Shown one piece after another: positions 6,245-55,154 of a DNA stretch of 64,000 nt. How positions within the stretch are numbered: the first letter of the stretch is position 1; every line of letters starts with the position of its first letter. The DNA comes from a virus. The position numbers and the translations under genes are program-made. The stretch covers positions 120,325 to 184,324 of IMG/VR virus record IMGVR_UViG_3300020391_000003. One strand, written 5' to 3'. The notes beneath the pieces are model-generated. The model saw nothing but the letters and a program-made list of their open reading frames with translations. It did no database searches and was not told the origin of the DNA.

Positions 6245-6751
6245 TTAAATTAAATGTAATCTTTCTAATGCGTTTTTATCTTGATTATACCCTCCTGGTT
6301 TATCTTTATTTTTACAATTCCACAGATCAATACCACAATCTAATTGTTTATTTATGGAGCCCCAACCAAAATCACATAAATATATTTTATCATTAATATC
6401 AATTAAAATCTCTCCAATTTTAATATCATTATGTTGAACATTAACACTTTTCATATCACTAAGTATTTTGTTAAATTGTTCTTTTAAATTCTTAGGTTTA
6501 TTTTTTCTAGTTACTGGAACACCTACATTACTATATACTAAAAACTTATTGATATCATCTGAATAAAGTAGTTTTGGGAACCAGTCAAAATCCTTTAAAA
6601 TTGATGCTAGGTATTTTTCTCTTTCATAAATATTATACTCTTTGTATTTTATCACATATTTAATAAATAAAAAAGGGCTTGTGAATGATGCACTGGTGGC
6701 TCCTTCATCTATGATGTTAATATCATTTTTAAGATTTATATTAGATTTCAT
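6245..6751 (-). CDS. Small protein-kinase-fold protein
   Basis: 168 residues. QHNDI (106-110) fits the catalytic-loop HxD position and CDFGW (126-130) the DFG metal-binding motif, 18 residues apart. Lysines in FIKYVIK (29-35) and Glu44/Glu46 could form the N-lobe salt bridge. The protein is much shorter than a 250-residue Ser/Thr kinase and has almost no C-lobe after the DFG, so it may be a minimal kinase, an aminoglycoside-kinase-like enzyme or a pseudokinase. It is paired with the nucleotidyltransferase-like gene in the cassette. Confidence 0.65.
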   Translation of the reverse strand: MKSNINLKNDINIIDEGATSASFTSPFLFIKYVIKYKEYNIYEREKYLASILKDFDWFPKLLYSDDINKFLVYSNVGVPVTRKNKPKNLKEQFNKILSDMKSVNVQHNDIKIGEILIDINDKIYLCDFGWGSINKQLDCGIDLWNCKNKDKPGGYNQDKNALERLHLI

Positions 6752-14475: not shown

Positions 14476-16095
14476 ATGTCTAAAGAATATAAATATACAA
14501 CAACGTTTGAAAATATAATTTTTGCATCGAGCGATATTGAAGACTCAAATATCAGTCAAGCTTCTTTGGAATCTTTGAGACCTTTGATTCCTGCAAGTAT
14601 TGATTTAGACAAAAATATTGATTTGCTTGGAGTAGCTTTTAATGCTGCAGTTGTAAATAAATTTAATAAAAATGGAGATGGTATTGATAGTGAAGCGGCA
14701 GTTAAAATCAAAGATTATTTTGTTCACAAACCTGCAAACATAGAGCATGATAGAGACAGAATAGTGGGGCACATTGTTTCTGCTGGATTTTCAAAATACT
14801 CTGACTCTTCAGAATTGATGAGCGACGAGGAAGCTTTGGTTGAAGACAAAGCTTATAATATTGCATTGGCTGCAGTAGTTTATCGAACAGCCAGCAAAGA
14901 GTTTGCAGATTTAGTTGTTAATTCGACAGATCCAGACAGCGACTTTTTTGAAAGTGTTTCTGCTAGTTGGGAAGTTGGATTTAATGATTACGTAATTTCA
15001 GTGGGAGGAGATGACTTACATGAGTCTACTATAATTTCTAACCCAGAGGAGGTCAAAGCATACTCTCCTTATTTAAAATCTTTAGGTGGAAAAGGAATGC
15101 TTCAAGACGGAAGAAAAGTAAATCGATTAATAGTTGGAGATATTTATCCACTAGGAATTGGCTTTACTTCTAATCCTGCTGCCGATGTCAAAGGCCTTGT
15201 TGCCGAGAAAGGAGAATCTAAACCAGAACCTTCTGTTAAAAAAGATCCTATCGACAAGTTAATGACAAAAAGCAAAAAAACTTCCCATTCTACTCAAGAA
15301 AATGTACTAAACAAAGAAACCTATCATAATAACATTATGGACAAAGATCAAATCATCAATGAATTCCGAGCAGCTTTAGACGAAAAGCTTGGCAACCAAG
15401 ATTTTTCTGAAGAGAGTGTCGCAAGCATCTCTAAAGTTTTTATCGAGGCTATCCGAGAGAAAGGCGAGCAATATGTCGCCGATCTTGAAAAGGCTAAAGC
15501 TGAAAAAGAAGAAGCTGTTCAGGCTCAAAATTCTCTTCAAGAGAAAATGGGAGAAGTGGAGCAGCAATTACAATCCACGCAAGAAAAACTTTCTGTGTTA
15601 GAAGAAGAAAATTCTGCTAGAGAAGCAGAAATTCGCTTCAACTCACGCATGGAAGCTTTAAACGAAATCTATGACCTTGACGAAGATGATTCCAAAATTG
15701 TGGCTTCTGAAATCAGCGACCTTGACGAAAGCGAAGAAAGCTTTGCAGAATATCAAGAAAAACTCGCTAAAGTCTGGAAGCACAAGAACAAAGAATTTAT
15801 CGCAGCTGAGCAAAAAGCTTTTGAAGATCGTGTGGCTCAAGAAGTTGAGAAACGAATCGCTCAAGCATCAGAATCTCAGCAAGACACAGAAACCGAAGAA
15901 GAACTTGAAGTTGCAGAAGCATCTGCAGAAAAAACTGAAGATGCTGAAGAAGCTGATGCAGTAGAAGAAGCTCTTGAAAGTTTAGAAGTCGAAGAAGCAG
16001 CCGTTGTCAATAACAACGAATCTTCTTCTGATGGAGAATCTTTAAGAGATCGTCTTCAAAAGACTTTCAAGGATTCTGTAAAAATTTCATACTAA
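14476..16095 (+). CDS. Prohead protease fused to scaffold
   Basis: 539 residues in two parts. The N-terminal ~260 residues look like an assemblin-type prohead protease: NIEHDRDRIVGHI (candidate His) and FFESVSASWEVGF (candidate Ser). The C-terminal ~280 residues are Glu/Ala/Lys-rich with long coiled coils (about 330-430), typical of scaffold. An internal ATG at 15337 (MDKDQIINEFRAAL) could yield a separate scaffold protein, as in lambda C/Nu3, though no Shine-Dalgarno is visible. Codon use becomes less AT-rich after this point. It sits between terminase and capsid genes as expected. Confidence 0.75.
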   Translation: MSKEYKYTTTFENIIFASSDIEDSNISQASLESLRPLIPASIDLDKNIDLLGVAFNAAVVNKFNKNGDGIDSEAAVKIKDYFVHKPANIEHDRDRIVGHIVSAGFSKYSDSSELMSDEEALVEDKAYNIALAAVVYRTASKEFADLVVNSTDPDSDFFESVSASWEVGFNDYVISVGGDDLHESTIISNPEEVKAYSPYLKSLGGKGMLQDGRKVNRLIVGDIYPLGIGFTSNPAADVKGLVAEKGESKPEPSVKKDPIDKLMTKSKKTSHSTQENVLNKETYHNNIMDKDQIINEFRAALDEKLGNQDFSEESVASISKVFIEAIREKGEQYVADLEKAKAEKEEAVQAQNSLQEKMGEVEQQLQSTQEKLSVLEEENSAREAEIRFNSRMEALNEIYDLDEDDSKIVASEISDLDESEESFAEYQEKLAKVWKHKNKEFIAAEQKAFEDRVAQEVEKRIAQASESQQDTETEEELEVAEASAEKTEDAEEADAVEEALESLEVEEAAVVNNNESSSDGESLRDRLQKTFKDSVKISY

Positions 16096-21912: not shown

Positions 21913-24474
21913 TTATTTAACGTCAGACATTTTCATATAGATCTTTTCATCCATAATATTCAATGAATCAAGAAATACTATATCTTCGCCTTTTCTTCCA
22001 TAAGCTACAATAATACTCTTTTTAGACGGAGTTTTATTTTTAGATTCAAAGTACCTATCATAATAGTTTCCTCTTCTTGAATTGAGTAACATAGCATCGT
22101 ATTTACCAAATTCATCAGAGATGGAAAGCTTCATATACTTATTTCCATTTCTAGATGTTCTTTTAATGCAGTCGTCAACCACGCCAATAAATTTTCCTTT
22201 TTCATCTGACTCCATAATTTTAAGATCTCTAGAATCTAAAAGAGAATTATATGAGTCAATAAAACATGATTTCAAGTTAGAGCTATGGCTATAACCCAGC
22301 AACTCTGTTTCAAAATACCAGTTTGCAAAAGTTTCATAAGGCTTGTTTTTATCATAAATAGATTTATAAACATCATACTTCTTCTTAAATGTTTTAAAAC
22401 GAGACTCCTTCATGAGAGGCTTTCCATCATCGCCAACTAATTCTCCTTTTTTTGCATCAGAAATACAATTAAGAAGTTTATATTGATATTTTTCTCCGAG
22501 CAATATAAAGTTTCTTTTTTCTCTTTCAGTTAAAAGATTAAATGCTTGAGCCTCTAAAACCATCAGCGATCTATTTGAACCTTTACTTTGTAATGATCCA
22601 GCTTGTATTAATGCACTAAGCACGCCAATATTTAATCCTGCTTGTTTGGCGGCAAGAAATATATCATATTTTGTTGGCGTGTCACTCGACCTAAAATCTT
22701 TTAGAGACTGCAGAGACTTTTCGCTTACTCCTTTTATACTGTTTAATCCAAAGCGAATATCTTTGCCTTCAATCGAAAAATCCATATTAGATTTTGCTAA
22801 ATCTGGCGAAAGTAATTTAATACCAAAGCTTGATAATTCTTTGCATATTTTTGATATTTCTTCTTGAGGTGCAGGCTCATACTTTGTCATCTTCAATAGA
22901 GACAAGAAGAACTGTTGTGGATGCTGAAACTTTAAGTATGTAGTCCATGCACTCAGAACAGAATAACTCAAAGAGTGTGATTTATTAAATGAGTAGTTGG
23001 CGCTATCTTCTGCAACGCTCCAAAGAATAGTTCCTACTTCTGGAGGTAAATCATTTTCCTCTACTTTTTCTCGTATCTTTGCTTTCCAAGCTGGCATTTG
23101 ATCAACTTTCTTTTTGCCCACTATTCTTCTTAACTGCTCTGATTCGTCAAGGGTAAAACCTACCTTGACGGCCATTTGCATAAGCTGCTCTTGATAAAGA
23201 GGAATACCTCCTGTATAATCTAAAACATCAGTAAAAAACTCATGAATGACTTGTGCTTCACCAGTTTCAATATATGTCGCATAGTCTTGGAGAAATTCTA
23301 AAGCGCCAGGTCTTCCAATGGCTACAACCGCGCTAAGCTCTTCTAGGCTTCTAGGCTTGATTTTTTTGCATACTCTATAGTTGGTGTCAGATTCAATTTG
23401 AAAAAGGCCGTGAGGCGCGCTAAGCGACTGCAAGGGGGTAAATGTGGAAACCTCATTTAAGTCAATATCTTCGCAATCAATATTTAGCTCTTTACATACA
23501 TCATGAATTACGCTCAAGGTGCGCAGTCCCAAAATATCAAATTTAACCATAAGTTCTGAAACCCAGTTCATGTCATATCCAGTTACCAAGGCTCCGTCGT
23601 TGGACTTTTGTATTGGGCATATGTCAGTCATTTTGTCAAAAGAAATTGCGATTCCGCTTGGATGAACTCCAGTGTTTTTGTTGAGCCCTTCTAGCTTTAA
23701 CGCTATGTTAAACGACTCTGCATTTTCTGCAGACCAGTCAACGAATTTTTCGCTTTCCTCTAAAGCAGTTTTAAGCGGAACAACAACTCCAAATCTTTTG
23801 GGAATAGTGTCGCTAACTTCATTAACTTCTTGCTCTGATAACTCACCAACTATCTTGCCGCATTCTTTTATGCATAGCTTGCCGCTTAGGGTATTGAGTG
23901 TTAAAATTTTTGCAGTCCTGCCAGGGTGTTTTTTATCAATATAATTTATTACCTCTACTCTTCTTTCGTACGCAATATCGTTATCAACGTCTGCTAGTAA
24001 ACTTCCGTCGAGATATGTAATACCATTATGTTCAATTTTTCTCGCTCTGCTTTTAGAAACAAACCTTTCAAAGAAAAGATTATATTTTACGGGGTCTACG
24101 TTTGTGACTCCTATTAAATATAAAACTAAGGATCCTGCAGCAGAACCTCTGCCTGGGCCAGTAGGTATATTGTTTTCATGGCAGTAATTTAGTATATCCC
24201 AATTTAGCAAAATATAATCCGTAAATCCAAGATCTTCTAAAATTGTTAACTCTGTTTTTGCGCGGTCAAAGTAGTCTTTTTTGTTTTCAAATTTGTCTAT
24301 ACCTTTATCATAAACACCTTTGTGGCAGAGTTTTCTGAGAAAATCATAGTTTGAGATATTAGGTTTTGCGTCAAGCATTTTATAATATCTGTCTTCGATT
24401 TTGATATTTGGAAGTCTGACTCCAACTGGCACGCAGTCATCATAGGATGAAAATTGTTCTGTAAAATTACTCAT
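21913..24474 (-). CDS. dnaE: DNA polymerase III alpha, catalytic and C-terminal parts
   Basis: 853 residues from the ATG at 24474, which overlaps the exonuclease TGA as ATGA; a longer start at 24489 is possible. The family signature GPGRGSAAGSLVLYLIG is present, followed by VDPVKYNLFFERFVS and the catalytic ADVDND, where the aspartates match the PDxDxD motif of bacterial replicative polymerases. Later regions contain YQEQLMQMAVKVGF and YSFNKSHSLSYS, and an OB-fold-like end. The N-terminal PHP domain is missing and is encoded separately at 25596. Replicates phage DNA. Confidence 0.9.
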   Translation of the reverse strand: MSNFTEQFSSYDDCVPVGVRLPNIKIEDRYYKMLDAKPNISNYDFLRKLCHKGVYDKGIDKFENKKDYFDRAKTELTILEDLGFTDYILLNWDILNYCHENNIPTGPGRGSAAGSLVLYLIGVTNVDPVKYNLFFERFVSKSRARKIEHNGITYLDGSLLADVDNDIAYERRVEVINYIDKKHPGRTAKILTLNTLSGKLCIKECGKIVGELSEQEVNEVSDTIPKRFGVVVPLKTALEESEKFVDWSAENAESFNIALKLEGLNKNTGVHPSGIAISFDKMTDICPIQKSNDGALVTGYDMNWVSELMVKFDILGLRTLSVIHDVCKELNIDCEDIDLNEVSTFTPLQSLSAPHGLFQIESDTNYRVCKKIKPRSLEELSAVVAIGRPGALEFLQDYATYIETGEAQVIHEFFTDVLDYTGGIPLYQEQLMQMAVKVGFTLDESEQLRRIVGKKKVDQMPAWKAKIREKVEENDLPPEVGTILWSVAEDSANYSFNKSHSLSYSVLSAWTTYLKFQHPQQFFLSLLKMTKYEPAPQEEISKICKELSSFGIKLLSPDLAKSNMDFSIEGKDIRFGLNSIKGVSEKSLQSLKDFRSSDTPTKYDIFLAAKQAGLNIGVLSALIQAGSLQSKGSNRSLMVLEAQAFNLLTEREKRNFILLGEKYQYKLLNCISDAKKGELVGDDGKPLMKESRFKTFKKKYDVYKSIYDKNKPYETFANWYFETELLGYSHSSNLKSCFIDSYNSLLDSRDLKIMESDEKGKFIGVVDDCIKRTSRNGNKYMKLSISDEFGKYDAMLLNSRRGNYYDRYFESKNKTPSKKSIIVAYGRKGEDIVFLDSLNIMDEKIYMKMSDVK

Positions 24475-25115
24475 ATTTCTATTTCCCATATCATTTTTTT
24501 AAATACTTCAAAATTAACTTCAATATCGTATAATGCATCATGAAGCTTATTTTCATTAAAAGGCACATCAAAATCTTTGCAGCATTGTTTTAAATTACAA
24601 GATAACCCTCTTTCTATTAAGTGATTTAGTCTATATTGCCATGCCAGAAAGTCGTCGTCTTTATTTAATTTAATTCTTTTCTTTAGAGCTTTAGCTAGAC
24701 AGAGAGTGTCAACCAGTTGGTTGGCATAAGAAAAGTCTGGCTTGTATTTTTCATTCACAAGTTTGCGATGTAAATTGTGCATGTAAACATCAAAACCTAA
24801 AAGGTTATGCCCCACCTTAATATAATCTGGGTCATATAAATATTTTTCAAAATGTTCTAGAGCTTGTTTTGGGCAAGATGCTTTTTTATCATATTTAGCT
24901 TTTGTGAAACCGGTAATTTTTGCGGCTTCAGGAGAGACAGTTAAGTCGTTCCATTTTAACCAATAATCTTTTGATTCTATAATTTTATTATTTTCCACAA
25001 CAAGAAATGCTAATTGCCATGGTTTATTATTTGATACCAAATTTAAATTGCATGTTTCATAATCGAACAGTAAGTATTTTTGATTTTTTTTAAATCTTAA
25101 TAGTGATTCTTTCAT
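24471..25115 (-). CDS. DEDDh 3'-5' exonuclease (proofreading, DnaQ-like)
   Basis: 214 residues. Motif I is FDYETCNL (Asp18 and Glu20 region), motif II HNLLGFDVYMHNL, and motif III LHDALYDIEV with His and Asp, as in DnaQ/epsilon-type exonucleases. It lies between the polymerase and SET genes with 4-bp ATGA overlaps on both sides, so translation of all is coupled. It most likely proofreads for the phage polymerase. Confidence 0.85.
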   Translation of the reverse strand: MKESLLRFKKNQKYLLFDYETCNLNLVSNNKPWQLAFLVVENNKIIESKDYWLKWNDLTVSPEAAKITGFTKAKYDKKASCPKQALEHFEKYLYDPDYIKVGHNLLGFDVYMHNLHRKLVNEKYKPDFSYANQLVDTLCLAKALKKRIKLNKDDDFLAWQYRLNHLIERGLSCNLKQCCKDFDVPFNENKLHDALYDIEVNFEVFKKMIWEIEI

Positions 25116-25621
25116 TTTAAATCTTCTCTTTCTGGGTTGCCATAGTTTATTAAAATTTCTTCCCCCTTTTTGATGTCAATTACAGATGTATATCTAAATA
25201 AAAAATCATCAAAATCTATTTCCCAATTTGCGTTATATTTTTTTTCGGAATGATTAAATATCATTCCATAGCCTAAAACTGCAGCCGTACAGTAAATTTC
25301 AGAAATATCTTTATACCCCAACTCTTCTAGATCCTTAAGTATTTTATTTTTTAAACCTTCGTCGCCAATGTGTGAAGCTAGAGAAATTTTGAAATTAATT
25401 TCTTCATTTTCCTCGGGGGAGCTTGCTTCGTTATAAAAAAGAGAAAAGAAATATCTACTGAGCTCTTTGTCTTGAAAAGTTTGTTTTGCGCCGCAAACTA
25501 TAAAGTGAGCTTCTTCAAGTATTTCTCCTTCTTTAATATTCTCTGAAGCAAATACGCCTCTGCCTCCAATGTTGGATTTTCCGATTGATATTTTGTTATT
25601 TCTTATTAGTTCGTACTTCAT
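25112..25621 (-). CDS. SET-domain protein (putative lysine methyltransferase)
   Basis: 169 residues from the ATG at 25621, chosen to limit overlap; an upstream start at 25663 also exists. SET signatures: IGGRGVFASENIKEGEIL near the start, MIFNHSEKKYNANWEI (the NHS..N motif that binds AdoMet) and KKGEEILINYG at the end (GE..xxYG). Eukaryotic-type SET enzymes methylate lysines on proteins. One inside a phage DNA-polymerase operon is unusual. Targets could be replication proteins or host nucleoid proteins; unknown. Confidence 0.8.
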   Translation of the reverse strand: MKYELIRNNKISIGKSNIGGRGVFASENIKEGEILEEAHFIVCGAKQTFQDKELSRYFFSLFYNEASSPEENEEINFKISLASHIGDEGLKNKILKDLEELGYKDISEIYCTAAVLGYGMIFNHSEKKYNANWEIDFDDFLFRYTSVIDIKKGEEILINYGNPEREDLK

Positions 25622-26375
25622 TTTCTTGCTTCCAGCTTTGAAAACTAAATTGATCGCTTCCAAAATGGTCTAGGTTTGGTTTGCTCAGCGTTTTATTGCC
25701 AAAACTTCTTCCTGTAATGCATTTATAGGTTTGAAGTGCGGCTACATCTTTGTTTTGTTTGTAATAAATGCTTTTTGTTTGCTCTGTTTTAAAGTCGTTA
25801 GAGCGGCAGTATTCTGAAACTTTTTCTGACAAGAAGTTGTCAAATGGAAGTCCATTATTTTCAATAAAGAAAACAGGTTTACAAAAATCAAAATTTGGTG
25901 TGCAATTAGAAAACTTCATAAGATTATTGTATATAAAACTATCATAAAATGGAATTGCCATGATTAGACTTCTGCTTGACCAGTGCTTTTTTAAAAGTTT
26001 GTGATCAACGCAGTTGTGATTCTTTGTAAATGCTTCGCTGTAAATTTTATTAATTAATTGACATCCCTTTGCGTTTCTTGCAAACAGGATTATTTTGTGC
26101 GAGCTGTCCAGTGATTCTTCTTTGGGATCTATCATTCCATCTTCTTTCATATTTATTCTTAGTCCGAAGACTAGTTTGATGCCTAGCTTGTCTGCGTTTT
26201 TCTTCGCTTGAAGAAATCCAGTAAGCGAATCTTCAACTAAAACTATTTCTTTTAAATTATTTTCTACAGCAATACTAAAAATGCTATCTGCTCCGCCTTC
26301 TTTTTGTGTAATTGGATCATCTAGAGTTAATATACTTTTGCCGATAGAAAAGTGGCTTTTGAATAATGCGATCAT
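25596..26375 (-). CDS. Stand-alone PHP-like domain of DNA polymerase III alpha
   Basis: 259 residues from the ATG at 26375. The frame continues to 26411 but a sigma70-like promoter lies across those codons with its -10 ending 7 nt before this ATG, so the upstream codons cannot be in the mRNA. Features of the PolIIIalpha N-terminal region: SIFSIAVENNLKEIVLVED, LVFGLRINM and ARNAKGCQLINKIYSEAF. The metal-binding HxH of active PHP domains is replaced at the start (LFKSHFSIGKS), so it is probably catalytically dead. It presumably binds the separate polymerase chain. Confidence 0.75.
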   Translation of the reverse strand: MIALFKSHFSIGKSILTLDDPITQKEGGADSIFSIAVENNLKEIVLVEDSLTGFLQAKKNADKLGIKLVFGLRINMKEDGMIDPKEESLDSSHKIILFARNAKGCQLINKIYSEAFTKNHNCVDHKLLKKHWSSRSLIMAIPFYDSFIYNNLMKFSNCTPNFDFCKPVFFIENNGLPFDNFLSEKVSEYCRSNDFKTEQTKSIYYKQNKDVAALQTYKCITGRSFGNKTLSKPNLDHFGSDQFSFQSWKQENEVRTNKK

Positions 26376-26382
26376 GCCCACT

Positions 26383-26411
26383 ATTTTATCAATAAATGCG
26401 GTCTTTGTCAA
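26383..26411 (-). promoter_or_regulatory. Sigma70-like promoter for Pol III operon
   Basis: Reading minus: TTGACA (26411-26406), 17 bp, TAAAAT (26388-26383), then 7 nt to the ATG at 26375. Divergent from the nrdA promoter. Confidence 0.75.
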
Positions 26412-30043: not shown

Positions 30044-30068
30044 AACAGCCCCAAGGGGCTGTTTTTTT
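30044..30068 (+). terminator. Rho-independent terminator after nrdB
   Basis: AACAGCCC and GGGCTGTT form an 8-bp stem with a CAAG loop, followed by a run of seven or more T. It lies in the gap between convergent nrdB and the DUF1501 gene. Confidence 0.9.
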
Positions 30069-31332
30069 ATGTCAAGATATCCAAGATTGGTGGCTCGCCA
30101 TTTGAAACTTTAAAAGGTCTTCCGCTAGGAGAGTATGTAATTTTTTCAATACTCAATCCCATAGCGTAAGCAATTGTTGCATTAATTGATGGAACATCAA
30201 CTCCTTTTTCTTCAACGTAATGTGCCCGCTTATCAGATTTACCATGAACATAACCTTGCTTAATTCCGCCTCCAGCAAAAAATACGCTGAACGCAGACGG
30301 ATGATGATCTCTTCCAACTCTTCCGGCTTTGATTTCTGGAGTTCTTCCAAATTCACTTGCTACAACAACCATTGTATCTGAAAGCATACCTCTGCGATCA
30401 AGATCTGAGAGCAAGGTCGAAAGTCCATCATCTAAAACTTTTGCTTTGTTTTCTAATCCGCCAAAAACATCATTATGCATGTCCCATCCTCCATACGATA
30501 CTTCTACAAAACGCACTTTGTTTTCTATAAGTCTTCGAGCTAAAAGACAACCTTGACCAAAATTGTTTTGTCCATATTCTTCTCTTAATGCTTCTGGCTC
30601 GTGAGTAAGGTCAAATGCTTCGAGGTCTTTACTTTTCATAAGTTTTATTGCATCGTCATATAAATCAGAATAAGCTCTAACTTGTTTTTGAGGAAATTGC
30701 CTAGTAAAACCTTCGTTTAAAATACTTGATGCATCTAGTCTGTCTTTATACATATCTTCTTGTACATATCCTGATTTTTTTACGTTTTGTATGCCAGCAT
30801 CTGGGTTTCCAAGAGGCAGTGGGCCGTGCTTACTTTCGAAATATCCCGCGCCAATAATTCCACTTCCGCCATTGATTTTAACATTATCTGGAAGGCTGTG
30901 ATTTAATTTTCCACATAATTTACTAATCCAGCTGCCCATGCTTGGGTGAATAATTGTGCCACGCTTTTGATAACTTGTATGCAAAAGATAGTTTGCTTGT
31001 TCATGTGCCCCTTGATTGCTATTTACCGATCGAACTAACGACGCTAAGTGCATTTGTTGCGCTGTTCTAGGAAGCCAGCTGCCAATCTGAATGCCATCTG
31101 CAGAAGTATTTATTGCCGTAGTTTCACCCATAACCTCTTTGTTTTCTGGCTTTGGGTCAAATGTATCTATGTGAGTCATTCCTCCTGACATATTTAAAAA
31201 TATAACGTGCCTAGCAGTAGGGACTCGTTCTGTGCGGGCGATTAAATCTTGTCCATATATTAGAGCGTTTACTCCGAGGTATGCTTTGGCAATATTTTGC
31301 GCAAATTGTCTTCTAGTTAATTCATCGTTCAT
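30067..31332 (-). CDS. DUF1501 family protein
   Basis: 421 residues. An N-terminal twin-Arg element (LTRRQFAQNIAKAYLG) lacks a clear cleavable hydrophobic stretch. Family signatures: VIFLNMSGGMTHIDTFDPKP near the start, VEVSYGGWDMHNDVFGG, VVASEFGRTPEI, and VGRDHHPSAFSVFFAGGG near the end. DUF1501 proteins are abundant in Planctomycetota and Verrucomicrobiota, related to the alkaline-phosphatase/sulfatase fold, and normally paired with DUF1549/DUF1553 proteins, as here (20-bp gap). The biochemical role is unknown. In a phage it is likely cargo from the host. Transcribed from the promoter at 33488. Confidence 0.9.
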   Translation of the reverse strand: MNDELTRRQFAQNIAKAYLGVNALIYGQDLIARTERVPTARHVIFLNMSGGMTHIDTFDPKPENKEVMGETTAINTSADGIQIGSWLPRTAQQMHLASLVRSVNSNQGAHEQANYLLHTSYQKRGTIIHPSMGSWISKLCGKLNHSLPDNVKINGGSGIIGAGYFESKHGPLPLGNPDAGIQNVKKSGYVQEDMYKDRLDASSILNEGFTRQFPQKQVRAYSDLYDDAIKLMKSKDLEAFDLTHEPEALREEYGQNNFGQGCLLARRLIENKVRFVEVSYGGWDMHNDVFGGLENKAKVLDDGLSTLLSDLDRRGMLSDTMVVVASEFGRTPEIKAGRVGRDHHPSAFSVFFAGGGIKQGYVHGKSDKRAHYVEEKGVDVPSINATIAYAMGLSIEKITYSPSGRPFKVSNGEPPILDILT

Positions 31333-31352
31333 AATAATTATTTGTTTACACT

Positions 31353-33401
31353 TTACTTGATAAAAATAAATTCATGGCTATTTAATAGTATCCATGATAC
31401 ATGTTTGAATCCATCTTTTTCATCAATAAATTTTGTTAATAAATTTGATTCACTAGTTTTAGGTTTTCTAGATAAAATCGATAAAAATGCATTTTCTACT
31501 TGTTTTGTTTTTGTTTTTTCTGATTGCATTAATTCTATAAAATCTGCATCTTTTTTGTTCAATATATTTGTTTCTACAAATCCATTTAAAAGATTAAGTA
31601 CTTGTGTTGTATTTGGCTCTGAATTGCTATTATCTATTTGCTCTTTATCACTACCACCAAACTGCCTTATTAAGTGTCCTCCTGGAGCTGGATAAGAAAG
31701 ATAGCTGCTTCTAACAAGGTTGCGATCCTTTACCTTGACTTTTTCATATTCAAGGCCCGAAGCTTTTTCAATTAAACTAACAAAGTTTCTGCTGTTTGGG
31801 TTTTCATCTGCAAGGGCTTTGATGTCTTGATAGATTTCCGGGCCAGTCATGTCTTTATATCTTTTGTATATAATAGAATAGTCTTGTTGATTTTGCATGT
31901 GAATTCTAGATTGACTGTCTATATCATTATAAACTAAAGTTACCAAAGAATCCCAGAGTTGCTCTCCTGTCATTCTTCTCAATATAGGACCTTCAAAATT
32001 ATAGTCTTCCAAGCTTTTGTAATCTTCTTTTTTACTTTCTCTTTGAAACAATCTAGTATTCAAAAGAATTCTTTGGTATTCTTTCAAGTCATAATTCACA
32101 CTAACCATTAATCTTTCCAGATATTTCATCAGCTTTTCGTTGCTAGCCAAAGTATCATCCATCATCGAATCAATAGGTTCTATAAGGCCAGCACCAAAAA
32201 TATGTTTCCATATTCTGTTTGCAATCATTGTTGTAAATCTAGGATTATCTTTACTTGTCATCCAGTTCGCAAAAACTTTTCTACTATTACCTTCTATTTT
32301 TTCAATCGGCTTGGGGGTAAATATAGCTTTTGCTAAAACAGTATCTCCTGGATTAGCATTATCTTCCGCAAAATCTACAGGCAATTTTATTGTTCCTGTG
32401 CCATTATTTTCTATTCCAAACTGTATAGAATCTCTTATTTGATTTCGCCAATTATTAAATGTTCCAGCTCGAGGATCAGCGTCACTATCAATACTTCGAC
32501 TTAAATCATTTATAACCTTACCTTCTTTTCTTAATCTAACATTACCAATACCAGAAGTAAATGCTGTCATTTCATAAAATTCTTTTTGTGTCCATCGATC
32601 AAAAGGATGATCGTGGCACATCGCGCACTCTAGTTGGGTTCCCAAGAAAATTCTAACTGTATGAGAAAGATTATCTGCTTGCATGCCTCTATCTCTTAAA
32701 TAATAACTTATGGCTTCTCCGCCATCATATAGCTTACCAGTGCTTCCTAATAACTCTTTTACAATTTGATCATATGTTTTGTTTGCAGTTATTGCTTCTC
32801 TTAGCCACTTGCGATAAACAATACCCACACTAATATTGGTTCCATTTATTCCGTCTTTAATTCGCAACATATCGCTCCACCAGTTTAATTGATGATTTAC
32901 ATAACCACTTGAATTTAAAAGTTTTTGAATTAACTTATCTTTTCTATCTCTGTCATTATCATCAGTAAATTCAATCACTTCTTTGTGAGTTGGTATTCTG
33001 CCTATAGTTGTTAAATACAATCTTCTTGTATAAGTATACTCGTCTAATTCTTTTGTTTTTTGTAATCTTTTTGAACGTAAATTTTGATCTATAAGCGTGT
33101 CTATATAGCTAGAGTACTGTTTTAGGGTTTTAGTATCAAGAGGCGTTTTAAGTGGCGGTATGGAGCTGTATCGACCTTCTGAGTAGTAAAGTTCTATTTG
33201 CTTTTGAGAGTCTTTTGTTAGAAGCTCTGTTTTAATTCTAAATTGTTGCAAATCTGAAGATCTTTTTAATAAAACATGTGTTGTATTAGCTTCTATAATT
33301 TCTGCGTCTAATGATTTGCCGTTATTAAAATAAAGCTTACTTGCTAAGGTTATTGGCGCTGTTACCAATAAAACAAATAGTATAAATATAAATTTTTTCA
33401 T
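31353..33401 (-). CDS. DUF1549/DUF1553 secreted protein
   Basis: 682 residues with a clear signal peptide (1-20, FIFILFVLLVTAPITLA). Domain order: a small N-terminal beta module (22-75), DUF1549 (about 95-300) with WWSDMLRIKDG and LECAMCHDHPFDRW, whose CAMCH at 259-263 is the family's CxxCH motif, then DUF1553 (about 360-640) with KVFANWMTSKDNPRFT and IANRIWKHIFGAGLIEP. It is shorter than many homologues, which carry extra cytochrome or LamG domains. Exported to the periplasm or surface; the CxxCH could bind haem or metal. Paired with DUF1501. Confidence 0.9.
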   Translation of the reverse strand: MKKFIFILFVLLVTAPITLASKLYFNNGKSLDAEIIEANTTHVLLKRSSDLQQFRIKTELLTKDSQKQIELYYSEGRYSSIPPLKTPLDTKTLKQYSSYIDTLIDQNLRSKRLQKTKELDEYTYTRRLYLTTIGRIPTHKEVIEFTDDNDRDRKDKLIQKLLNSSGYVNHQLNWWSDMLRIKDGINGTNISVGIVYRKWLREAITANKTYDQIVKELLGSTGKLYDGGEAISYYLRDRGMQADNLSHTVRIFLGTQLECAMCHDHPFDRWTQKEFYEMTAFTSGIGNVRLRKEGKVINDLSRSIDSDADPRAGTFNNWRNQIRDSIQFGIENNGTGTIKLPVDFAEDNANPGDTVLAKAIFTPKPIEKIEGNSRKVFANWMTSKDNPRFTTMIANRIWKHIFGAGLIEPIDSMMDDTLASNEKLMKYLERLMVSVNYDLKEYQRILLNTRLFQRESKKEDYKSLEDYNFEGPILRRMTGEQLWDSLVTLVYNDIDSQSRIHMQNQQDYSIIYKRYKDMTGPEIYQDIKALADENPNSRNFVSLIEKASGLEYEKVKVKDRNLVRSSYLSYPAPGGHLIRQFGGSDKEQIDNSNSEPNTTQVLNLLNGFVETNILNKKDADFIELMQSEKTKTKQVENAFLSILSRKPKTSESNLLTKFIDEKDGFKHVSWILLNSHEFIFIK

Positions 33402-33487: not shown

Positions 33488-33516
33488 AGTATATACTAAT
33501 ATTAATATCTTGTCAA
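33488..33516 (-). promoter_or_regulatory. Sigma70-like promoter for DUF1549/DUF1501 operon
   Basis: Reading minus: TTGACA (33516-33511), 17 bp, TATACT (33493-33488). About 80 nt of leader precede the ATG at 33401, unlike the leaderless promoters elsewhere. Confidence 0.75.
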
Positions 33517-33529
33517 TCAAAAATTACAC

Positions 33530-33553
33530 AAAAAAACCGCATTTAAGCGGTTT
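33530..33553 (-). terminator. Rho-independent terminator after Hsp20 gene
   Basis: AAACCGC and GCGGTTT form a 7-bp stem around a 6-nt loop. On the minus strand it is followed by seven T. It separates the Hsp20 unit from the DUF1549 promoter 14 bp further on. Confidence 0.8.
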
Positions 33554-33575
33554 TGTGGCAGAAGCAATATTATAA

Positions 33576-34849: not shown

Positions 34850-36358
34850 TTAACTTTTACTTTTTTCTTCGGATTTTTTCTTATCCAAAATTTCTTTGTG
34901 CTTTTCCATAAAAACTTTATGGCTAGGTCCTGCCATATATAACGTCTTACCGTTTTTATCTTTGAGGGTATGAAAACCTTGCAAGCCAAGTTTTTTTGCG
35001 TCCTTAAGAGCTTCTTCTTTTGTTTCAAAATAATGTTTCATGGGGTCAGGATTACCTTGAGCTCTTTTTAAAGCTTCTTTTGTGGGCCTATCTTTATCTC
35101 CAGGCTTTGCTGGTCGATAGTTTTTGCCCATACGTTTTTTCTTTTTGCGAATATTTTCCCAAAGACTTGAGTAAGATTTTTTCTTTTTCTTTTTGTCTTT
35201 ATCTTTTTCGTGATGACCAGATTCGGACTCTTTCATTTCTTCGCCTTGCTTTTTTAAAATTGCTTCTTGCAATGGCTTGGGAAGTTTCTTTTGTTTTTCG
35301 GTTAAACCAGCTTTACTTTTTTCATACAATGAGCTTTTCATTTTTTTGTATTGAATTGCGCAAGCTGCATAAGTTTTATCTTTATCCATTCCAGCGGTAT
35401 TAACTAAATCATCATCATATTTTGCACAATGATGCATAAATGCCTTTTCCATGTAGTCCATAGAACTTGCTTCAGATTCTTCAGTTTCTTTGTGATCTTC
35501 TCCCTTGGTCATTTTTGTTACGCTTTTCTTTGACCACATTTTGCAGCTCCAATAACGTGCTTTTGTTTTGGGTCCGGGATTTTCACAATTATGTCTAGCT
35601 CTAAAGTTCTTGCGACGATTTGGATCATCGCGTTTAATTTCCATGTTCGGATCTCCAAAATTTACTTTTACTACATTGCCCTTTTCATTTTTGACATAAA
35701 CAGAAAACTTTTTTGGACCGCCTGGAGTTCTAAATGGTTTATTGAGTTTTTTACCTTTGTTGGCTTCAGCCGCCCAACTTTCTTCATCAACATACTCTTC
35801 AAAACCTAATTCGTCAACGTCCGAAAAAATTTCGCTCCACATTTCTTCGGTGAAGTCTGGGTCTTCTTGTAATTGGTCGTTATAAATATCAAGCTTAGCT
35901 TGAATAAAATCTTCTTCAGTCAAAAAGTTTTCTTCTCTAATACCGTCATCGATAATTACATTGGCACTAGCTTTAGCGATATCTTGGTCAGCTTTTCTGT
36001 AGCTATCTTTTACTTTACCACCACGCACCATTTTAAGAAATGTATTAACTCTTGCCATAGCCCATTGACCTCTTGATTTTCCTGGCCTGTGACTGGATGA
36101 AAATGCTCCAGCTCCTCTGCGATAAACTTTTTTAAGCTGTGAAAGAGTAACTTTTTTACTATACTTAGAGTTATGTTCTTTTACTTTATTTTTTAAAGAC
36201 TCTAAAACTTTGGCTGAAAAATTAATTTTACCACCTTTTTGGCCAGCACTACCTGGCTTATTTTTAGAGGAGCCTTTTTTACGTTCTGATTTTTTAGCTG
36301 GAGTTTGAGCGGAGCTTTTTGGTCCAGGGCGTTTTGCGGAGCTGTATTTATCTTTCAT
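34850..36358 (-). CDS. Large basic multi-module virion-type protein
   Basis: 502 residues, very Lys-rich. Modules in order: a disordered basic start (1-45); a conserved block with LKKVYRRGAGAFSSSHRPG and RGQWAMARVNTFLKMVR (about 73-112), well known in phage head or structural proteins; an acidic region (130-200); a second block with VKVNFGDPNMEIKRDDP and FRARHNCENPGPK (about 230-275); a two-cysteine module AFMHHCAKYDDD...TYAACAIQYKKM (about 305-345); and a basic tail. The blocks are often found as separate or fused modules in phages. The family function is unknown; an internal head or DNA-associated role fits the charge. Confidence 0.7.
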   Translation of the reverse strand: MKDKYSSAKRPGPKSSAQTPAKKSERKKGSSKNKPGSAGQKGGKINFSAKVLESLKNKVKEHNSKYSKKVTLSQLKKVYRRGAGAFSSSHRPGKSRGQWAMARVNTFLKMVRGGKVKDSYRKADQDIAKASANVIIDDGIREENFLTEEDFIQAKLDIYNDQLQEDPDFTEEMWSEIFSDVDELGFEEYVDEESWAAEANKGKKLNKPFRTPGGPKKFSVYVKNEKGNVVKVNFGDPNMEIKRDDPNRRKNFRARHNCENPGPKTKARYWSCKMWSKKSVTKMTKGEDHKETEESEASSMDYMEKAFMHHCAKYDDDLVNTAGMDKDKTYAACAIQYKKMKSSLYEKSKAGLTEKQKKLPKPLQEAILKKQGEEMKESESGHHEKDKDKKKKKKSYSSLWENIRKKKKRMGKNYRPAKPGDKDRPTKEALKRAQGNPDPMKHYFETKEEALKDAKKLGLQGFHTLKDKNGKTLYMAGPSHKVFMEKHKEILDKKKSEEKSKS

Positions 36359-45610: not shown

Positions 45611-45639
45611 AGTATAACTTAATTTGTATAAAAAGTCAA
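45611..45639 (-). promoter_or_regulatory. Sigma70-like promoter for recA operon
   Basis: Reading minus: TTGACT (45639-45634), 17 bp, TATACT (45616-45611), 6 nt to the GTG at 45604. It overlaps the 3' end of the upstream coiled-coil gene. Confidence 0.75.
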
Positions 45640-47648
45640 GCTTTATATTTATACTTGGGTTTTATATTGTGGTAAGTTCTATTGTCAACATGTTGGTCTA
45701 CTAAATTTTTAATCATAGAATTAAATATACTTTCTTTAGTTGATGGGTCTTTACCTATATCTGCCAAATCTATTTTATCTGAAATGTCTGAAAATTTATA
45801 TATATCCTCTTTTGTAAAATTATTTAATCTTTCAAAGCAGTGATGGCCAGAGTGCTTACATGGTACTTCTAGTAAATATCTTCCATTAGGTAAAATCGAG
45901 CATGTAATAATTGATATTTTACGATTTTTAATTTCAATATTTTCTTTTAATAATTGATTTTTCTGAGTGGTGAGTTCAGATATTTTATTCTCTAGTTCTG
46001 TATTTGGATTAATATTAACTTCTTGACTTTTATTTAAAAGCTGTTTTTCTAAATTAATATTTTTAATATAAAGATCTTCTTTTTCTTGCTCGAGGGCTGT
46101 TACTTGATTTTTTATTTCCGATAAAGCATTGGCACTCACACATATTTCAGATTTTAATTCGTCGATTGCATTTGATTGAGACTTATGGGAAATCATGATT
46201 TCTTTTATTTCGGAAACGTTTTTTGCGGCTTCATCTGCTTTGTTCAGTAGTTTGGCTTTACTAATTTTTATTTGCTTAATGTCATTTTCGGCAATTGTTT
46301 TTTGTTTTATTAGCTCTTCAATTTCTTTAGATACAACCGAGGAGTCTTCTTTTTTTATTATTTCTTGCTGACATTGTATTTTAATTTTTCTGAGTTCTTC
46401 TTTGGCTGCAGAAACTTCTTTTTGGTATTTTTGTACTTGATTCTCCTTTAGTGAAAGTATCTTACTTTCTTGGTCTATATCTTTTTGTTTTTCTTCAAGA
46501 TCAATTTGTTGCCTATCTAATTCTTTGATTTTAAGTTCAATTTCAGTTGACTTTTCAAATACAACAGTTTCATCTTGCATGGCTTTAGGAAACCTTTTGG
46601 ATAAACTAATGTGAGCCGCAAGAACCAGAAGAATAGCTAGAGGATCAAAAACGAAAATTAATATAATTATTACTATTCTTACAGCTTTCCCCATATCAAA
46701 TTGCATACCTGTAAAGTCCGCAATTAATTCTGCCACATATTTTATTGGCCCAATCTCGGCTTCTAGTTGTCTGGAGCCATCATCTAGCTCAAATTTTTCA
46801 CGTTCTAGATTGTCAATAATATTTAGAGCTTCAGAAATATTACGATTTAATTCTTCTATTTTTAATTCTGTATCTTCTGGCTTTTGAAATCCTATGGTTT
46901 GATATTCTTGTATTCTTTGTCTTATGTCTGAAATAATGGAAGATGTTTCATCTCTATATTTAGAAATTCTTGATTCTATTTCTTGTTTTTTAGTTTTAAG
47001 TTCTTCTCGCTCTGTAGCTTGCTCGGTTACTTTATCCTCTATCTTTTTCTTTTTGTTTGAAAATAAACCTCCAGGCCCATTTTTGACTTCATTCAATTCT
47101 TGGTTTAGTTCGTTAATTCTTGCTTGTATTGGATCAAGCATTTTGCTGTCAAGAGCTATATCTTTTTCTAGCTGTTCTGTAAGTTGGGATATTTTCTTCT
47201 GCTCCAATTCAATGTTGTCTGAGCTTTTATCTGATAGGTTTCGGTTTTTATCTTCGTTTTGAGCTATCAACTCTTTTTGCCTAGAAATATAATCTTGTTG
47301 TCTTGATATTTTTGTTTCAACCTGCTGAACTAAAGCTTGTGCTTTTTCGCTATTTTGCTCGTGTTCTATATGAGATTTAGATAAAAAACCAAAGATTCCC
47401 ATGCTTGTTATTCCCATCAAAACAACAATAGCTGAAAATAAATAAATTTTTATCATCTTAGGCGCAGACTTCCAGTTCTTGTGAAGCCATATTGCTGCTA
47501 TAATTTTACCAACTTCAAGAGCTGATCCCATAGCTATCACTGCGGCAATAGAACCTGGGAATATTGTGGCAAGACCAATAATACTAAAATATGCTGCTAT
47601 GCAAGATATGCTTAGCGCAGAAACAAGAGTCAAGATCGCGAAGATCAT
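45636..47648 (-). CDS. Membrane protein with long coiled coil
   Basis: 670 residues. Three hydrophobic segments lie in the first ~90 residues (ILTLVSALSISCIAAYFSII, FPGSIAAVIAMGSALEVG, IYLFSAIVVLMGITSMGIFG). A long coiled coil follows (about 95-300), one more membrane segment around 325-345 (IVIIILIFVFDPLAILLVLA), then another coiled coil (about 365-580) and a compact C-terminal domain. Proteins with this N-terminus occur in T4-like phages, function unknown. It could tether replication or virion assembly to the membrane. It overlaps its upstream gene by one base. Confidence 0.65.
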   Translation of the reverse strand: MIFAILTLVSALSISCIAAYFSIIGLATIFPGSIAAVIAMGSALEVGKIIAAIWLHKNWKSAPKMIKIYLFSAIVVLMGITSMGIFGFLSKSHIEHEQNSEKAQALVQQVETKISRQQDYISRQKELIAQNEDKNRNLSDKSSDNIELEQKKISQLTEQLEKDIALDSKMLDPIQARINELNQELNEVKNGPGGLFSNKKKKIEDKVTEQATEREELKTKKQEIESRISKYRDETSSIISDIRQRIQEYQTIGFQKPEDTELKIEELNRNISEALNIIDNLEREKFELDDGSRQLEAEIGPIKYVAELIADFTGMQFDMGKAVRIVIIILIFVFDPLAILLVLAAHISLSKRFPKAMQDETVVFEKSTEIELKIKELDRQQIDLEEKQKDIDQESKILSLKENQVQKYQKEVSAAKEELRKIKIQCQQEIIKKEDSSVVSKEIEELIKQKTIAENDIKQIKISKAKLLNKADEAAKNVSEIKEIMISHKSQSNAIDELKSEICVSANALSEIKNQVTALEQEKEDLYIKNINLEKQLLNKSQEVNINPNTELENKISELTTQKNQLLKENIEIKNRKISIITCSILPNGRYLLEVPCKHSGHHCFERLNNFTKEDIYKFSDISDKIDLADIGKDPSTKESIFNSMIKNLVDQHVDNRTYHNIKPKYKYKA

Positions 47649-48174: not shown

Positions 48175-50154
48175 GTGGCCAAAAGAAAATATATAAAAAA
48201 ATCTGATTACTGGAATAAGTTTTCCAAAGATAGCTCAGAAGATCTTTCCAAAATTATTCAATCTAACGACGCTAGCCCTTCTTCTTCTGGGGAACCTTAT
48301 TATACAGAATCTATAGCATCTACTTATAGTAGGAATAAATCTCTGTCTGACGAATTTTCTTCAAGAAGAAATGCGACACACAAGTCAACAAAAAAACATA
48401 GATTCTCTAATATTGCTAGTGGAGTCTTGCCATATACATATGGAGCTGACGGAGTAAACGTCAGAGAGACAATTGAGCTTTGTCAAAAAGCGTACGCGAA
48501 TATTTCTGTATTTAGAAATGCAATTGATGTTATGTCTGAGTTCGCTAATTCAAAAATATACTTAGAGGGTGGAACTCAAAATTCTCAAGACTTTATATAT
48601 AAATGGTTTGAGAGAATAAATTTATGGAACTTAAAAGATCAATACTTTAGAGAATATTATAGAAGTGGGAATATCTTTATGTATAGGGTTGATGGCCAGT
48701 TTTCAAAAGCTGACTTTGACAAAATAAGTAAAATTTATGGATCAACAATATCTTTAAAACCTGGAAATCTTCCTGTTAAGTATATTATGCTAAACCCTTA
48801 TGATATTGTCGCTAAAAAGGGATCTTCATTTGAAAATGGATTGTATGAAAAAATATTATCGGAGTTCGATATAGAAAGACTAAAAAGCCCTAAAACAGAA
48901 TATGATATTCAGGTATTTGAAGCTCTAGATCCTGAAACCAAGCAGGCAATAGAAAGAGGTCAATATAATTCTGATGGATTAAAAATAAAACTTGATCCTG
49001 GGCATTTGGTATATTCATTTTATAAAAAACAAGATTACGAACCTTTCGCTATTCCTTTTGGGTTTCCTGTGCTTGATGACATTAACTTTAAATTAGAGCT
49101 AAAGCAAATAGATCAGGCTATCTGTAGGACAATTGAAAATGTAATACTTTTAATAACTATGGGCGCAGAGCCAGATAAAGGCGGTATTAATCCAAGAAAT
49201 ATGGAGGCGATGCAGAACCTTTTCAAAAATGAGAGTGTTGGCAGGGTTTTGGTTAGTGATTATACAACAAAAGCAAATTTTGTTATACCTGACATCAGTA
49301 AAGTTGTTGGGCCGTCTAAATATGAGGTAATTAATAATGACATCAAAGAGGGATTGCAAAACGTAATTGTTGGTGATGAGAGATATAGTAATACCCAAGT
49401 GAAGGCGAAAATATTTTTAGAAAGACTTGAAGAATCAAGGAATGCTTTTATATATGATTTTTTACAACCTCAAGTAAAAATGATTTGTCAAAACTTAGGC
49501 TTTAGGAAATATCCGACTGTAAAATTTGAGCAGACAGATATAAAGGATGAAGTTCAGCTGCAAAGAGTTGCTACTAGATTAATGGAGCTGGGTATTATAA
49601 CTCCTGAGCAAGGCGTAAATGTTTTAGAAAAAGGTTCTTATCCAAGACCAGATGAAATGGAGGGAGCTCAAAAGAAATATATAGAGCAAAGAAAGCAGGG
49701 TATGTACAATCCAATTGTAGGAGGAGTTCCAATGATTGAACCTCAAACAGGTACAGGGTCTGGCCCATCAAAAGAAGTCGGAAGGCCAGTCGGAACAAGT
49801 GAAATTCCTCAGGAAAACAAAATTAATGCACAAGAATTATATTCAAGAAAAAACATACAAGACATAATTTATTCAACAGAAAATTTAAAAGCTCAAGGTT
49901 TAAAAGAAATGAGAAAGAGGCTTGGAAAGAAGAAGCTTAAAAAATCTGAAGAGTCTATGGTTTTTGAATTGATAGAGTCTGTAGTGCTATCGGAGGCAGA
50001 GAATCTATGGCAAGAAAGTATGTCGAAATGTATAAAAGATCCTGAGCAAGTTCTAAATTTAGGTATTAATAGTGAAATAAGAAATATATCTGAAGCGCAT
50101 GATTTAGATTTATATTCTGCAGCTTTATTATATCACAGTAACAGGAGGGATTAA
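48175..50154 (+). CDS. Portal protein
   Basis: 659 residues. A long N-terminal region leads to LKDQYFREYYRSGNIFMYRV, then LELKQIDQAICRTIENVILL and ITMGAEPDKGG, the helical stem-like part, and ERLEESRNAFIYDFLQPQVK. The C-terminal third is charged and helical. Size, order and RTIENVILL/YDFLQPQ style match phage portals, the 12-mer that docks the terminase and passes DNA. It is far from terminase and capsid genes (about 30 kb), unusual for a compact head module. Confidence 0.8.
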   Translation: MAKRKYIKKSDYWNKFSKDSSEDLSKIIQSNDASPSSSGEPYYTESIASTYSRNKSLSDEFSSRRNATHKSTKKHRFSNIASGVLPYTYGADGVNVRETIELCQKAYANISVFRNAIDVMSEFANSKIYLEGGTQNSQDFIYKWFERINLWNLKDQYFREYYRSGNIFMYRVDGQFSKADFDKISKIYGSTISLKPGNLPVKYIMLNPYDIVAKKGSSFENGLYEKILSEFDIERLKSPKTEYDIQVFEALDPETKQAIERGQYNSDGLKIKLDPGHLVYSFYKKQDYEPFAIPFGFPVLDDINFKLELKQIDQAICRTIENVILLITMGAEPDKGGINPRNMEAMQNLFKNESVGRVLVSDYTTKANFVIPDISKVVGPSKYEVINNDIKEGLQNVIVGDERYSNTQVKAKIFLERLEESRNAFIYDFLQPQVKMICQNLGFRKYPTVKFEQTDIKDEVQLQRVATRLMELGIITPEQGVNVLEKGSYPRPDEMEGAQKKYIEQRKQGMYNPIVGGVPMIEPQTGTGSGPSKEVGRPVGTSEIPQENKINAQELYSRKNIQDIIYSTENLKAQGLKEMRKRLGKKKLKKSEESMVFELIESVVLSEAENLWQESMSKCIKDPEQVLNLGINSEIRNISEAHDLDLYSAALLYHSNRRD

Positions 50155-53519: not shown

Positions 53520-55154
53520 TTAATATAATTTAAAATCTTCACTATTTAAAATTTTTGCTCCTGCGTTTTTAATCTTGCTTGTTAATAATAACTCGTTAAT
53601 TATGCACTGAGTTTTTTTCTTGAATAGTTTAACATTTGATTCTATCTTAAATTTACTATGCCAGCCTTTTGTCAACCAGTTTATTATGTGATTCTTTAAA
53701 TCGCTTGAAATCCTTGACGAATTTAGAAATGAATTTAATTCGTTTTCATCCTGAATTAATGAGTCAATTTTTATTTCCGAAGAGTTGTCTAATTTTATTT
53801 TTTGCAGTATTTTATTTGGTATAATAATCGCATTGCTACAAATCCAGTTGTTAAATTTCGCGTTATCAAGTGAAAAGTTTTTTTCCGATAAATTTAATCC
53901 ATCAATCTTTCCAAAAACTAAATCGTGTTTTTTTAATACATTTAATAAATCTTGATTTAAATGTTTGCCTATAACTTTTGTATTATAATTTAAGAAAGAA
54001 TCATTTGTTATTAAAATTAAGTCATAATGCTTGCCTTTTGATTCGTCGAATCCTTTTTGCCAACCCGAGAACTCCCAGTTTAAATTGTTACCTGGAATTA
54101 TTGATATTTTTTTTCCTTGAAATTTATTTAATCCTTCTCGCTTGTTATCTATTACTACGCAATCAAAATCTATACCTTTATTGTATAAGGCATCGGATAA
54201 AATTTTAAAAGAATGAGGGTATTTGTTGGAGTCGAATTGAGTATATAAAACTAAAAGATTTGCTTTGTCTTGAGGGTTAATTTTAAATCTAGAGCAATAT
54301 CTATCATGCACTCCGCATAATACGAAGATATCTGTCCCCTCTTTTTCTAAACTGCAACAATAAGATTTATCTTCTGGGGGATTTATTTCTTTTTTTTCTT
54401 TTATTATTATTTCTTTATCTATTATTTCAAAGCTTACCTTGTTAAACTTGTATTCGTATTCACCTCTTCTTTCGTGGCAAAGCATTATGAATTCATTAGA
54501 CTGAATATTTATAGGGTTACATGAGTTTCTGAGATTTATATTTTGATCTAGGTTGATGTTATTAAAAGAAATATTCTCTAATTTTTGTGCAGTTGTATAG
54601 ATGAGGGGAAACATAGAGTATATCACGTAAAACAAATCTTCATATTTGAAGCTCATCCAGTTTTTATTTGGATTGATTTGGTTTATTGAGTCGAATTTTT
54701 TAATATTAGTGATTTCAAGTTTAGATAAGTTTACTGAGCAGTGCCCTGCTGAAAAATCAATAGACACTTTTTTGCATTCTTCGTCATGGCAGATAGTTTG
54801 GTTTATTATTGTGCATGTAGCTAAAGCAATGATATCGCCGTTTTCTATTGTTACTGCACCATGTATAAATCTTATATCTTCAGGAAATTTATAATCTGGA
54901 TTTACATCTTTTTTTATATAGCTGTGGATTTTTTTCCCTTTTATATTGAATTTTAATTTAACATATTCGCCAGAATCTTCTTTTAACCAATAGGTAGATT
55001 GGCCATTAAAGTGGCCTCTGGGCGGAGGAGAGTTTTTGTAGTCTTCTCCTCTCGCAATAGTATATTTTTTGCCATTAAAGTTTGTTGAGCTTGGATTGAA
55101 GATGCAAATTGTTTTTTCGCCGGTTATTGATTTGCCTATATTTTTTAAGTTCAT
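53520..55154 (-). CDS. Large putative glycan-modifying protein
   Basis: 544 residues. The N-terminal ~300 residues have the character of a beta-propeller or glycoside-hydrolase-like fold (GAVTIENGDIIALATCTI, KNWMSFKYEDLFYVIYSMFP), as in GH130/GH32-related sensor parts. The C-terminal ~240 (LLVLYTQFDSNKYPHSFKIL, YDLILITNDSFLNYNT) resembles a glycosyltransferase-type Rossmann domain. This may be a two-domain transferase. It lies in the island, 4 bp after the GT25/GT32 fusion. Domain calls are tentative. Confidence 0.5.
   Translation of the reverse strand: MNLKNIGKSITGEKTICIFNPSSTNFNGKKYTIARGEDYKNSPPPRGHFNGQSTYWLKEDSGEYVKLKFNIKGKKIHSYIKKDVNPDYKFPEDIRFIHGAVTIENGDIIALATCTIINQTICHDEECKKVSIDFSAGHCSVNLSKLEITNIKKFDSINQINPNKNWMSFKYEDLFYVIYSMFPLIYTTAQKLENISFNNINLDQNINLRNSCNPINIQSNEFIMLCHERRGEYEYKFNKVSFEIIDKEIIIKEKKEINPPEDKSYCCSLEKEGTDIFVLCGVHDRYCSRFKINPQDKANLLVLYTQFDSNKYPHSFKILSDALYNKGIDFDCVVIDNKREGLNKFQGKKISIIPGNNLNWEFSGWQKGFDESKGKHYDLILITNDSFLNYNTKVIGKHLNQDLLNVLKKHDLVFGKIDGLNLSEKNFSLDNAKFNNWICSNAIIIPNKILQKIKLDNSSEIKIDSLIQDENELNSFLNSSRISSDLKNHIINWLTKGWHSKFKIESNVKLFKKKTQCIINELLLTSKIKNAGAKILNSEDFKLY

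Follow-up and report, generated by a model that had tools for sequence, protein, structure and literature searches.

Comparison of phage and bacterial sequences indicates that large marine myoviruses took a gene for a DUF1501 protein, usually with the upstream gene for a PSCyt2-PSD1 protein, several times independently from one locus of Opitutia-class bacteria. The best explanation, to which we give about an even chance, is that the genes form a host-derived auxiliary cassette, which would contribute two of the three proteins of a host system in the periplasm. The stretch of DNA analyzed, referred to here as the window, is the final 64 kb of a 184,324-bp IMG/VR virus record; the features of the pair and its flanks are collected in Table 1.

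The gene pair and its surroundings

An earlier note, made from the letters of the window alone, described an intact DUF1549/DUF1553 and DUF1501 pair between nrdB and an Hsp20 gene, the first protein having a signal peptide and a CxxCH motif, and this description stands in full: both reading frames are intact over exactly the boundaries in Table 1, both flanking genes are confirmed, and the domains are recovered by Pfam. The first gene codes for PSCyt2 (PF07583; E 6e-40, 137.9 bits against a cut-off of 29.8) and PSD1 (PF07587; E 1e-32, 113.6 bits against 28.5) within one protein, whose N-terminal part also contains an SHD1-like region, as judged by eye. The second matches DUF1501 (PF07394; E 9e-109, 364.7 bits against a cut-off of 27) over profile positions 1-389 of 390.

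Table 1. Features of the gene pair and its flanks, in window coordinates
Feature	Position	Strand	Details
PSCyt2-PSD1 protein	31353-33401	-	682 aa, intact ORF; PSCyt2 (DUF1549) residues 100-283, PSD1 (DUF1553) residues 374-658
Putative Sec-type signal peptide of PSCyt2-PSD1	33342-33401	-	MKKFIFILFVLLVTAPITLA; by eye
CxxCH motif of PSCyt2-PSD1	32613-32627	-	CAMCH, residues 259-263; candidate c-type haem site, from sequence comparison
DUF1501 protein	30067-31332	-	421 aa, intact ORF; alkaline-phosphatase/sulfatase-like predicted fold
Twin-arginine motif of DUF1501	31303-31317	-	TRRQF; putative Tat export signal, from sequence
Sigma70-like promoter	33488-33516	-	TTGACA-N17-TATACT, 11/12 matches; upstream of the unit, leader of ~80 nt
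Terminator-like hairpin	33533-33554	-	between the unit and Hsp20
Terminator-like hairpin	30044-30063	+	convergent end with nrdB

The relatives of the PSCyt2-PSD1 protein likewise start with hydrophobic leaders, and Cys259, Cys262, and His263 are invariant across the phage and host homologues. No other of the record's 232 ORFs with 60 aa or more codes for a CxxCH protein, and the combination of CxxCH with an export leader is that expected of a c-type cytochrome. The twin-arginine motif of DUF1501 was overlooked in the first reading; close to the N-terminus and of the form [ST]RRxF, it precedes a helix in the predicted model, as is expected of a Tat substrate, whose arginine pair comes ahead of a hydrophobic stretch. 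R7-R8 is invariant in all of the 33 distinct phage sequences, 32 of which have F at position 10. Twin-arginine export has been proposed previously for DUF1501 (PMC5122149).

The pair had also been credited with a sigma70-like promoter of its own and an 80-nt leader. The site is present and is one of two 11/12 sites within 12 kb, but the promoter scan as a whole is at chance level (50 sites against 46.7 expected), and among 12 relatives only the closest, L002, has kept it (L016 has a similar one at another distance). The promoter is therefore plausible in the window, whereas a promoter of its own as a general feature of the pair is rejected; relatives other than L002 probably read the genes from upstream promoters.

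Genes for terminase, a split DNA polymerase, a ClpA-like ATPase, helicase, primase, UvsX, and tail sheath surround the pair, which identifies the carrier as a myovirus. The polymerase seems to be divided among separate ORFs, one for the N-terminal part (window 25596-26411), a small one (25112-25663), one resembling an exonuclease (24471-25115), and one for the polymerase body (21913-24489); relatives retain this arrangement. The DUF5824-like module at 34850-36358, upstream of Hsp20/HNH, is mobile and lies between PSCyt2-PSD1 and DUF1501 in L003, L004, L016, L018, and L022. The large phage proteins encoded at 14476-16095, 45636-47648, 48175-50154, and 53520-55154 have no Pfam or PHROGs match and, where tested, none over the NCBIfam cut-off, and the single tRNA found in the record is tRNA-Thr(TGT) (L027:1387-1462, record 81387-81462).

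Distribution among related phages

The same gene order is present in L002, a contig of another metagenome, with 89-97% identity for the pair and nrdA/nrdB; an assembly chimera is thereby ruled out, and no sign of the artefact that the earlier note had named as fatal to its proposal was found. The other outcome that it had so named, the lack of any related phage with the pair, also did not occur. Initial scans with either protein matched 6 and 13 viral contigs. To avoid selection by the gene itself, contigs were chosen by DNA polymerase or terminase kinship, and a Pfam model search of 82 such records found DUF1501 in 31; together with other finds and the window's own record, the total is 38 distinct virus records, although IMG/VR records are mostly fragments and any record in these counts may be partial. 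Many close phage relatives contain neither gene, and hence the function is dispensable.

PSCyt2 is present in 24 of the 35 DUF1501-positive records checked and in 0 of 13 DUF1501-negative records. One of the 11 positive records without it, G201, ends at the contig edge just inside the partner gene, and DUF1501 occurs without PSCyt2-PSD1 in records of 211, 195, 126, and 107 kb. The view that the two are nearly always side by side thus holds only in part for phages, and a strict two-gene unit is rejected: DUF1501 is the constant component and PSCyt2-PSD1 an optional partner, so that the two need not act jointly. Record G220 has two DUF1501 genes, which belong to different paralogue clades (L077:2414-3724 and 5336-6667).

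Neither protein matched any of 50,697 records of isolated phages or has a homologue in PHROGs or NCBIfam, and PDB sequences gave a single match, at chance level. No paper was found in the literature that mentions DUF1501 together with DUF1549, in combination with both DUF1553 and phage, or in connection with auxiliary metabolic genes of viruses; a mention of DUF1501 in a phage table proved to be a weak match on a 61-aa protein. A protein of an uncultured Caudovirales phage, A0A6J5M742 (BFVD), is likewise viral and already bears the UniProt name "DUF1501 domain-containing protein," but its identity is only 11% over the structural alignment, and the literature search found no study of it.

In the window, L002, L004, L018, L022, L068, and group B1, the DUF1501 gene is convergent with nrdB, directly or past a small insert, and in group B2 the genes are placed between nrdB and the polymerase. 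An Hsp20 gene abuts nrdB in the close relatives L045, L048, L051, and L052, where the pair is missing. L063 (a contig of L004) and L104 have polymerases that are 82 and 83% identical to that of the window and nrdB genes that are 94-95% identical, yet DUF1501 has 83% identity to the window in one and 53% in the other. The nrdB-adjacent site therefore holds different alleles in otherwise close relatives, which amounts to replacement of alleles at a single site.

Origin and selection

Cellular relatives were sought by a genome scan and in up to 388 genomes of Verrucomicrobiota, and the nearest were from Opitutia and their kin, including AG-892-I21 (uncultured Verrucomicrobia, L008) and Opitutia bacterium IN921 (L009). 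DUF1501 of group B2 shares 87-88% identity with the copies on the chromosomes of G016 and G164. The host locus is conserved, with the order PSCyt2-PSD1, DUF1501, PSCyt1-LRR, and sufS, the last coding for a SufS-like cysteine desulfurase, and often includes a sulfatase. It contains the best-matching sequences to the phage pair and shares with it both domain families, their order and orientation, the Tat motif, and CxxCH, but its PSCyt1-LRR and sufS genes are absent from the phages. PSCyt1 had no match in any of 35 DUF1501-positive phage records, whereas two host genomes contained 14 and 21. Some host copies of PSCyt2-PSD1 have a Cys-rich insert that is missing from the protein of group A phages, which is also shorter than that of the host (682 versus about 840 aa).

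In a DUF1501 tree of 56 rows, a single phage clade is rejected (p-AU 2.75e-5), and with it a single ancient acquisition by phages; five phage/bacterium changes are needed across the bootstrap trees. A quick tree of 107 rows has seven such changes, with groups C1 and C2 derived from other paralogues. Several phage groups are nested among chromosomal orthologues, and group A, to which the window belongs, is a clade of 15 made up of phages only; its stem is long, and its sister clade unites the chromosomal orthologue with the B groups. Groups A, B1, and B2 are likewise distinct in the PSCyt2 tree, where A is next to IN921 (88% SH-aLRT). The phage copies thus represent several lineages rather than one, a new observation, with at least five switches between phage and bacterium, and five phage groups go back to a single conserved locus on the chromosome of marine Opitutia. 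Because the host genomes contain 8-66 DUF1501 paralogues (15 genomes counted), phages are unlikely to have drawn repeatedly on the one orthologue by chance, although the sampling of phages is uneven. The nesting and the chromosomal synteny point to transfer from host to phage, and the pair was almost certainly captured from the host; the stretch of G016 that resembles group B2 phages in nucleotide sequence spans both captured genes and leaves out the host flanking genes. That the genes are phage cargo derived from Verrucomicrobiota is borne out by the trees and nearest relatives, but the source is narrower than the families as a whole, being one particular chromosomal orthologue that was captured several times independently.

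The PSCyt modules of freshwater Verrucomicrobia (PMC5615132) are, with the Opitutia locus, the closest known systems, and He et al. suggested from gene context that PSCyt proteins act in carbohydrate metabolism (PMC5615132). Because the captured orthologue has sufS as its neighbor and a sulfatase nearby in only some cases, we do not claim a polysaccharide substrate. The DUF1501 modules of PVC bacteria (PMC4452313) and the DUF1800-DUF1501 pairs of Proteobacteria (PMC5122149) likewise combine DUF1501 with a partner protein that has no assigned function, but neither is phage-borne and the proteobacterial partner is a different one.

Between the window and L002, dN/dS is 0.023 for DUF1501, 0.055 for PSCyt2-PSD1, and 0.012 for nrdB; in more distant comparisons, synonymous sites are saturated. 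The ratios indicate that the pair is kept under strong purifying selection. As host-derived genes on a phage genome under such selection, the two have the sequence attributes of auxiliary metabolic genes, and the earlier suggestion of an auxiliary function gains from this, from the Verrucomicrobiota derivation, and from the many carrier phages. It is highly improbable that they are passive host cargo that confers no benefit, or a chimera: an accessory distribution, with many relatives lacking the pair, would fit that explanation, but it is already contradicted by the common order in an independent contig, by dN/dS values of 0.02-0.06, and by the fact that a single orthologue was captured several times although many paralogues were available.

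Predicted structure and possible role

The predicted DUF1501 model (pLDDT 77, pTM 0.78) matched sulfatases, sulfamidase, lipoteichoic acid synthases, and Escherichia coli alkaline phosphatase in Foldseek (best E 4e-7, probability 1.00), with modest global TM values of about 0.4. Membership of the alkaline-phosphatase superfamily is clear from the fold of the model, whereas the detail is not. Among the 107 sequences compared, 33 from phages and 74 from bacteria, H110, D284, H286, E327, R330, R341, and H343 do not vary, D/E56 is conserved in all, and D342 is conserved in 99; from this conservation, D/E56, D284, H286, E327, D342, and H343 are candidate metal ligands or catalytic residues. The C/S-x-P-S/A-R formylglycine motif was not found in DUF1501, and the protein is therefore not a type I sulfatase; the corresponding region reads GAHEQA, so that the presumed nucleophile region has the invariant H110 and no conserved Ser, Thr, or Cys. 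Comparison with the neighboring sulfatases by hhalign gave no significant match. The model of PSCyt2-PSD1 (pLDDT 53) was too poor for a fold search.

Such a fold raises the possibility that DUF1501 acts alone as a phosphatase- or sulfatase-like scavenger of phosphate or sulfate esters, feeding nucleotide synthesis during replication. Phage-carried phosphate-stress genes provide a comparison, and the proximity of the pair to nrdA/nrdB in the window and the constancy of DUF1501 are in keeping with this role. It is nevertheless rather unlikely, given the nucleophile region without CxPSR or a conserved Ser, Thr, or Cys and the profile comparison with sulfatases, and it leaves the PSCyt2-PSD1 partner unexplained.

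Modification of the envelope is somewhat less improbable but still unlikely. The exported DUF1501 would alter a surface glycan or a phospho- or sulfo-ester receptor, excluding co-infecting phages or freeing progeny from debris, and the swapping of alleles would follow variation in the host surface. The lipoteichoic acid synthases among the fold matches, the predicted export of both proteins, the occurrence of DUF1501 by itself, and the different nrdB-adjacent alleles (53 versus 83% identity) in phages with similarly diverged polymerases would accord with this; however, no glycan-synthesis cluster is visible around the captured orthologue beside sufS, and strong purifying selection with invariant candidate catalytic residues is unlike surface-driven diversification.

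The supply of subunits to a host periplasmic system, which we prefer, would explain the usual capture of the genes as a block, the retention of catalysis-type residues and of the haem motif, and the cytochrome gene left behind. During infection, PSCyt2-PSD1 would exit the cytoplasm via Sec, and its CAMCH may receive c-type haem through the host maturation system; DUF1501 would be exported folded by Tat and then meet PSCyt2-PSD1. In the periplasm, the pair would serve as, or replenish, the two catalytic-type subunits of a three-member system, with the PSCyt1-LRR cytochrome still coming from the host. As an enzyme of the alkaline-phosphatase superfamily, DUF1501 may use a metal to hydrolyze a phosphate- or sulfate-ester-like substrate or to transfer a group from it, a step that PSCyt2-PSD1 would couple to electron transfer, and the benefit may be a sustained supply of nutrients or energy, or upkeep of the envelope, once host expression is shut down. 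The occurrence of DUF1501 alone suggests that it carries the main benefit. An analogy is provided by cyanophage psbA, which keeps photosynthesis running in the infected cell and exemplifies host subunit genes that phages have acquired many times, leaving the other parts of the complex to the host; repeated capture of a host subunit is common to both cases, but the pair described here comprises predicted periplasmic proteins known from their genes.

The missing cytochrome could also indicate interference, in which phage subunits replace or titrate those of the host and, lacking the cytochrome (PSCyt1 in 0 of 35 phage records tested), shut the system down in a dominant-negative manner. This is very improbable, since a decoy would be expected to lose the candidate catalytic residues and CxxCH, all of which are kept under strict, enzyme-like selection.

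Capture and retention under strong selection suggest that the proteins are useful in the outer compartment of the infected cell. It is very probable that both are exported and functional; that they augment a host periplasmic system is a serious possibility to which we give slightly less than an even chance. More tentatively, the system may be an undescribed redox-linked, ester-processing one in the periplasm of marine Verrucomicrobiota, from which phages captured DUF1501, mostly with PSCyt2-PSD1, at least five times independently, swapping alleles at one site and relying on the host cytochrome. If so, this would be the first phage-carried PSCyt/DUF1501 system to be studied and would give a handle on the function of families that are strongly expanded and uncharacterized in Planctomycetota and Verrucomicrobiota. 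The phages narrow the question to one orthologue, repeatedly chosen out of many, and one optional partner; their choice marks members worth biochemical tests and offers small, strongly conserved natural variants.

The ancestry of the genes also points to marine Verrucomicrobiota as the probable hosts of this large uncultured myovirus lineage. Phage P8625, which has a capsid of about 47 nm and a long tail, infects a marine Verrucomicrobium (subdivision 4), as proposed for the host group here, but there is no evidence of its kinship to the window phage (PMC4642752). The phage record contains a tmRNA (L026:6721-7082, + strand, record 66721-67082; Rfam RF00023, E 1e-60) with the predicted tag AKNINSVESFSQEGLALAA; against Opitutia genomes it matched just short conserved stretches, mainly at the 3' end, and as these are uninformative, host assignment by tmRNA was abandoned. 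In three related phages, a tmRNA lies directly upstream of PSCyt2-PSD1, about 10-50 bases before its start (L005:5585-5951, L006:5539-5936, and L017:5486-5923).
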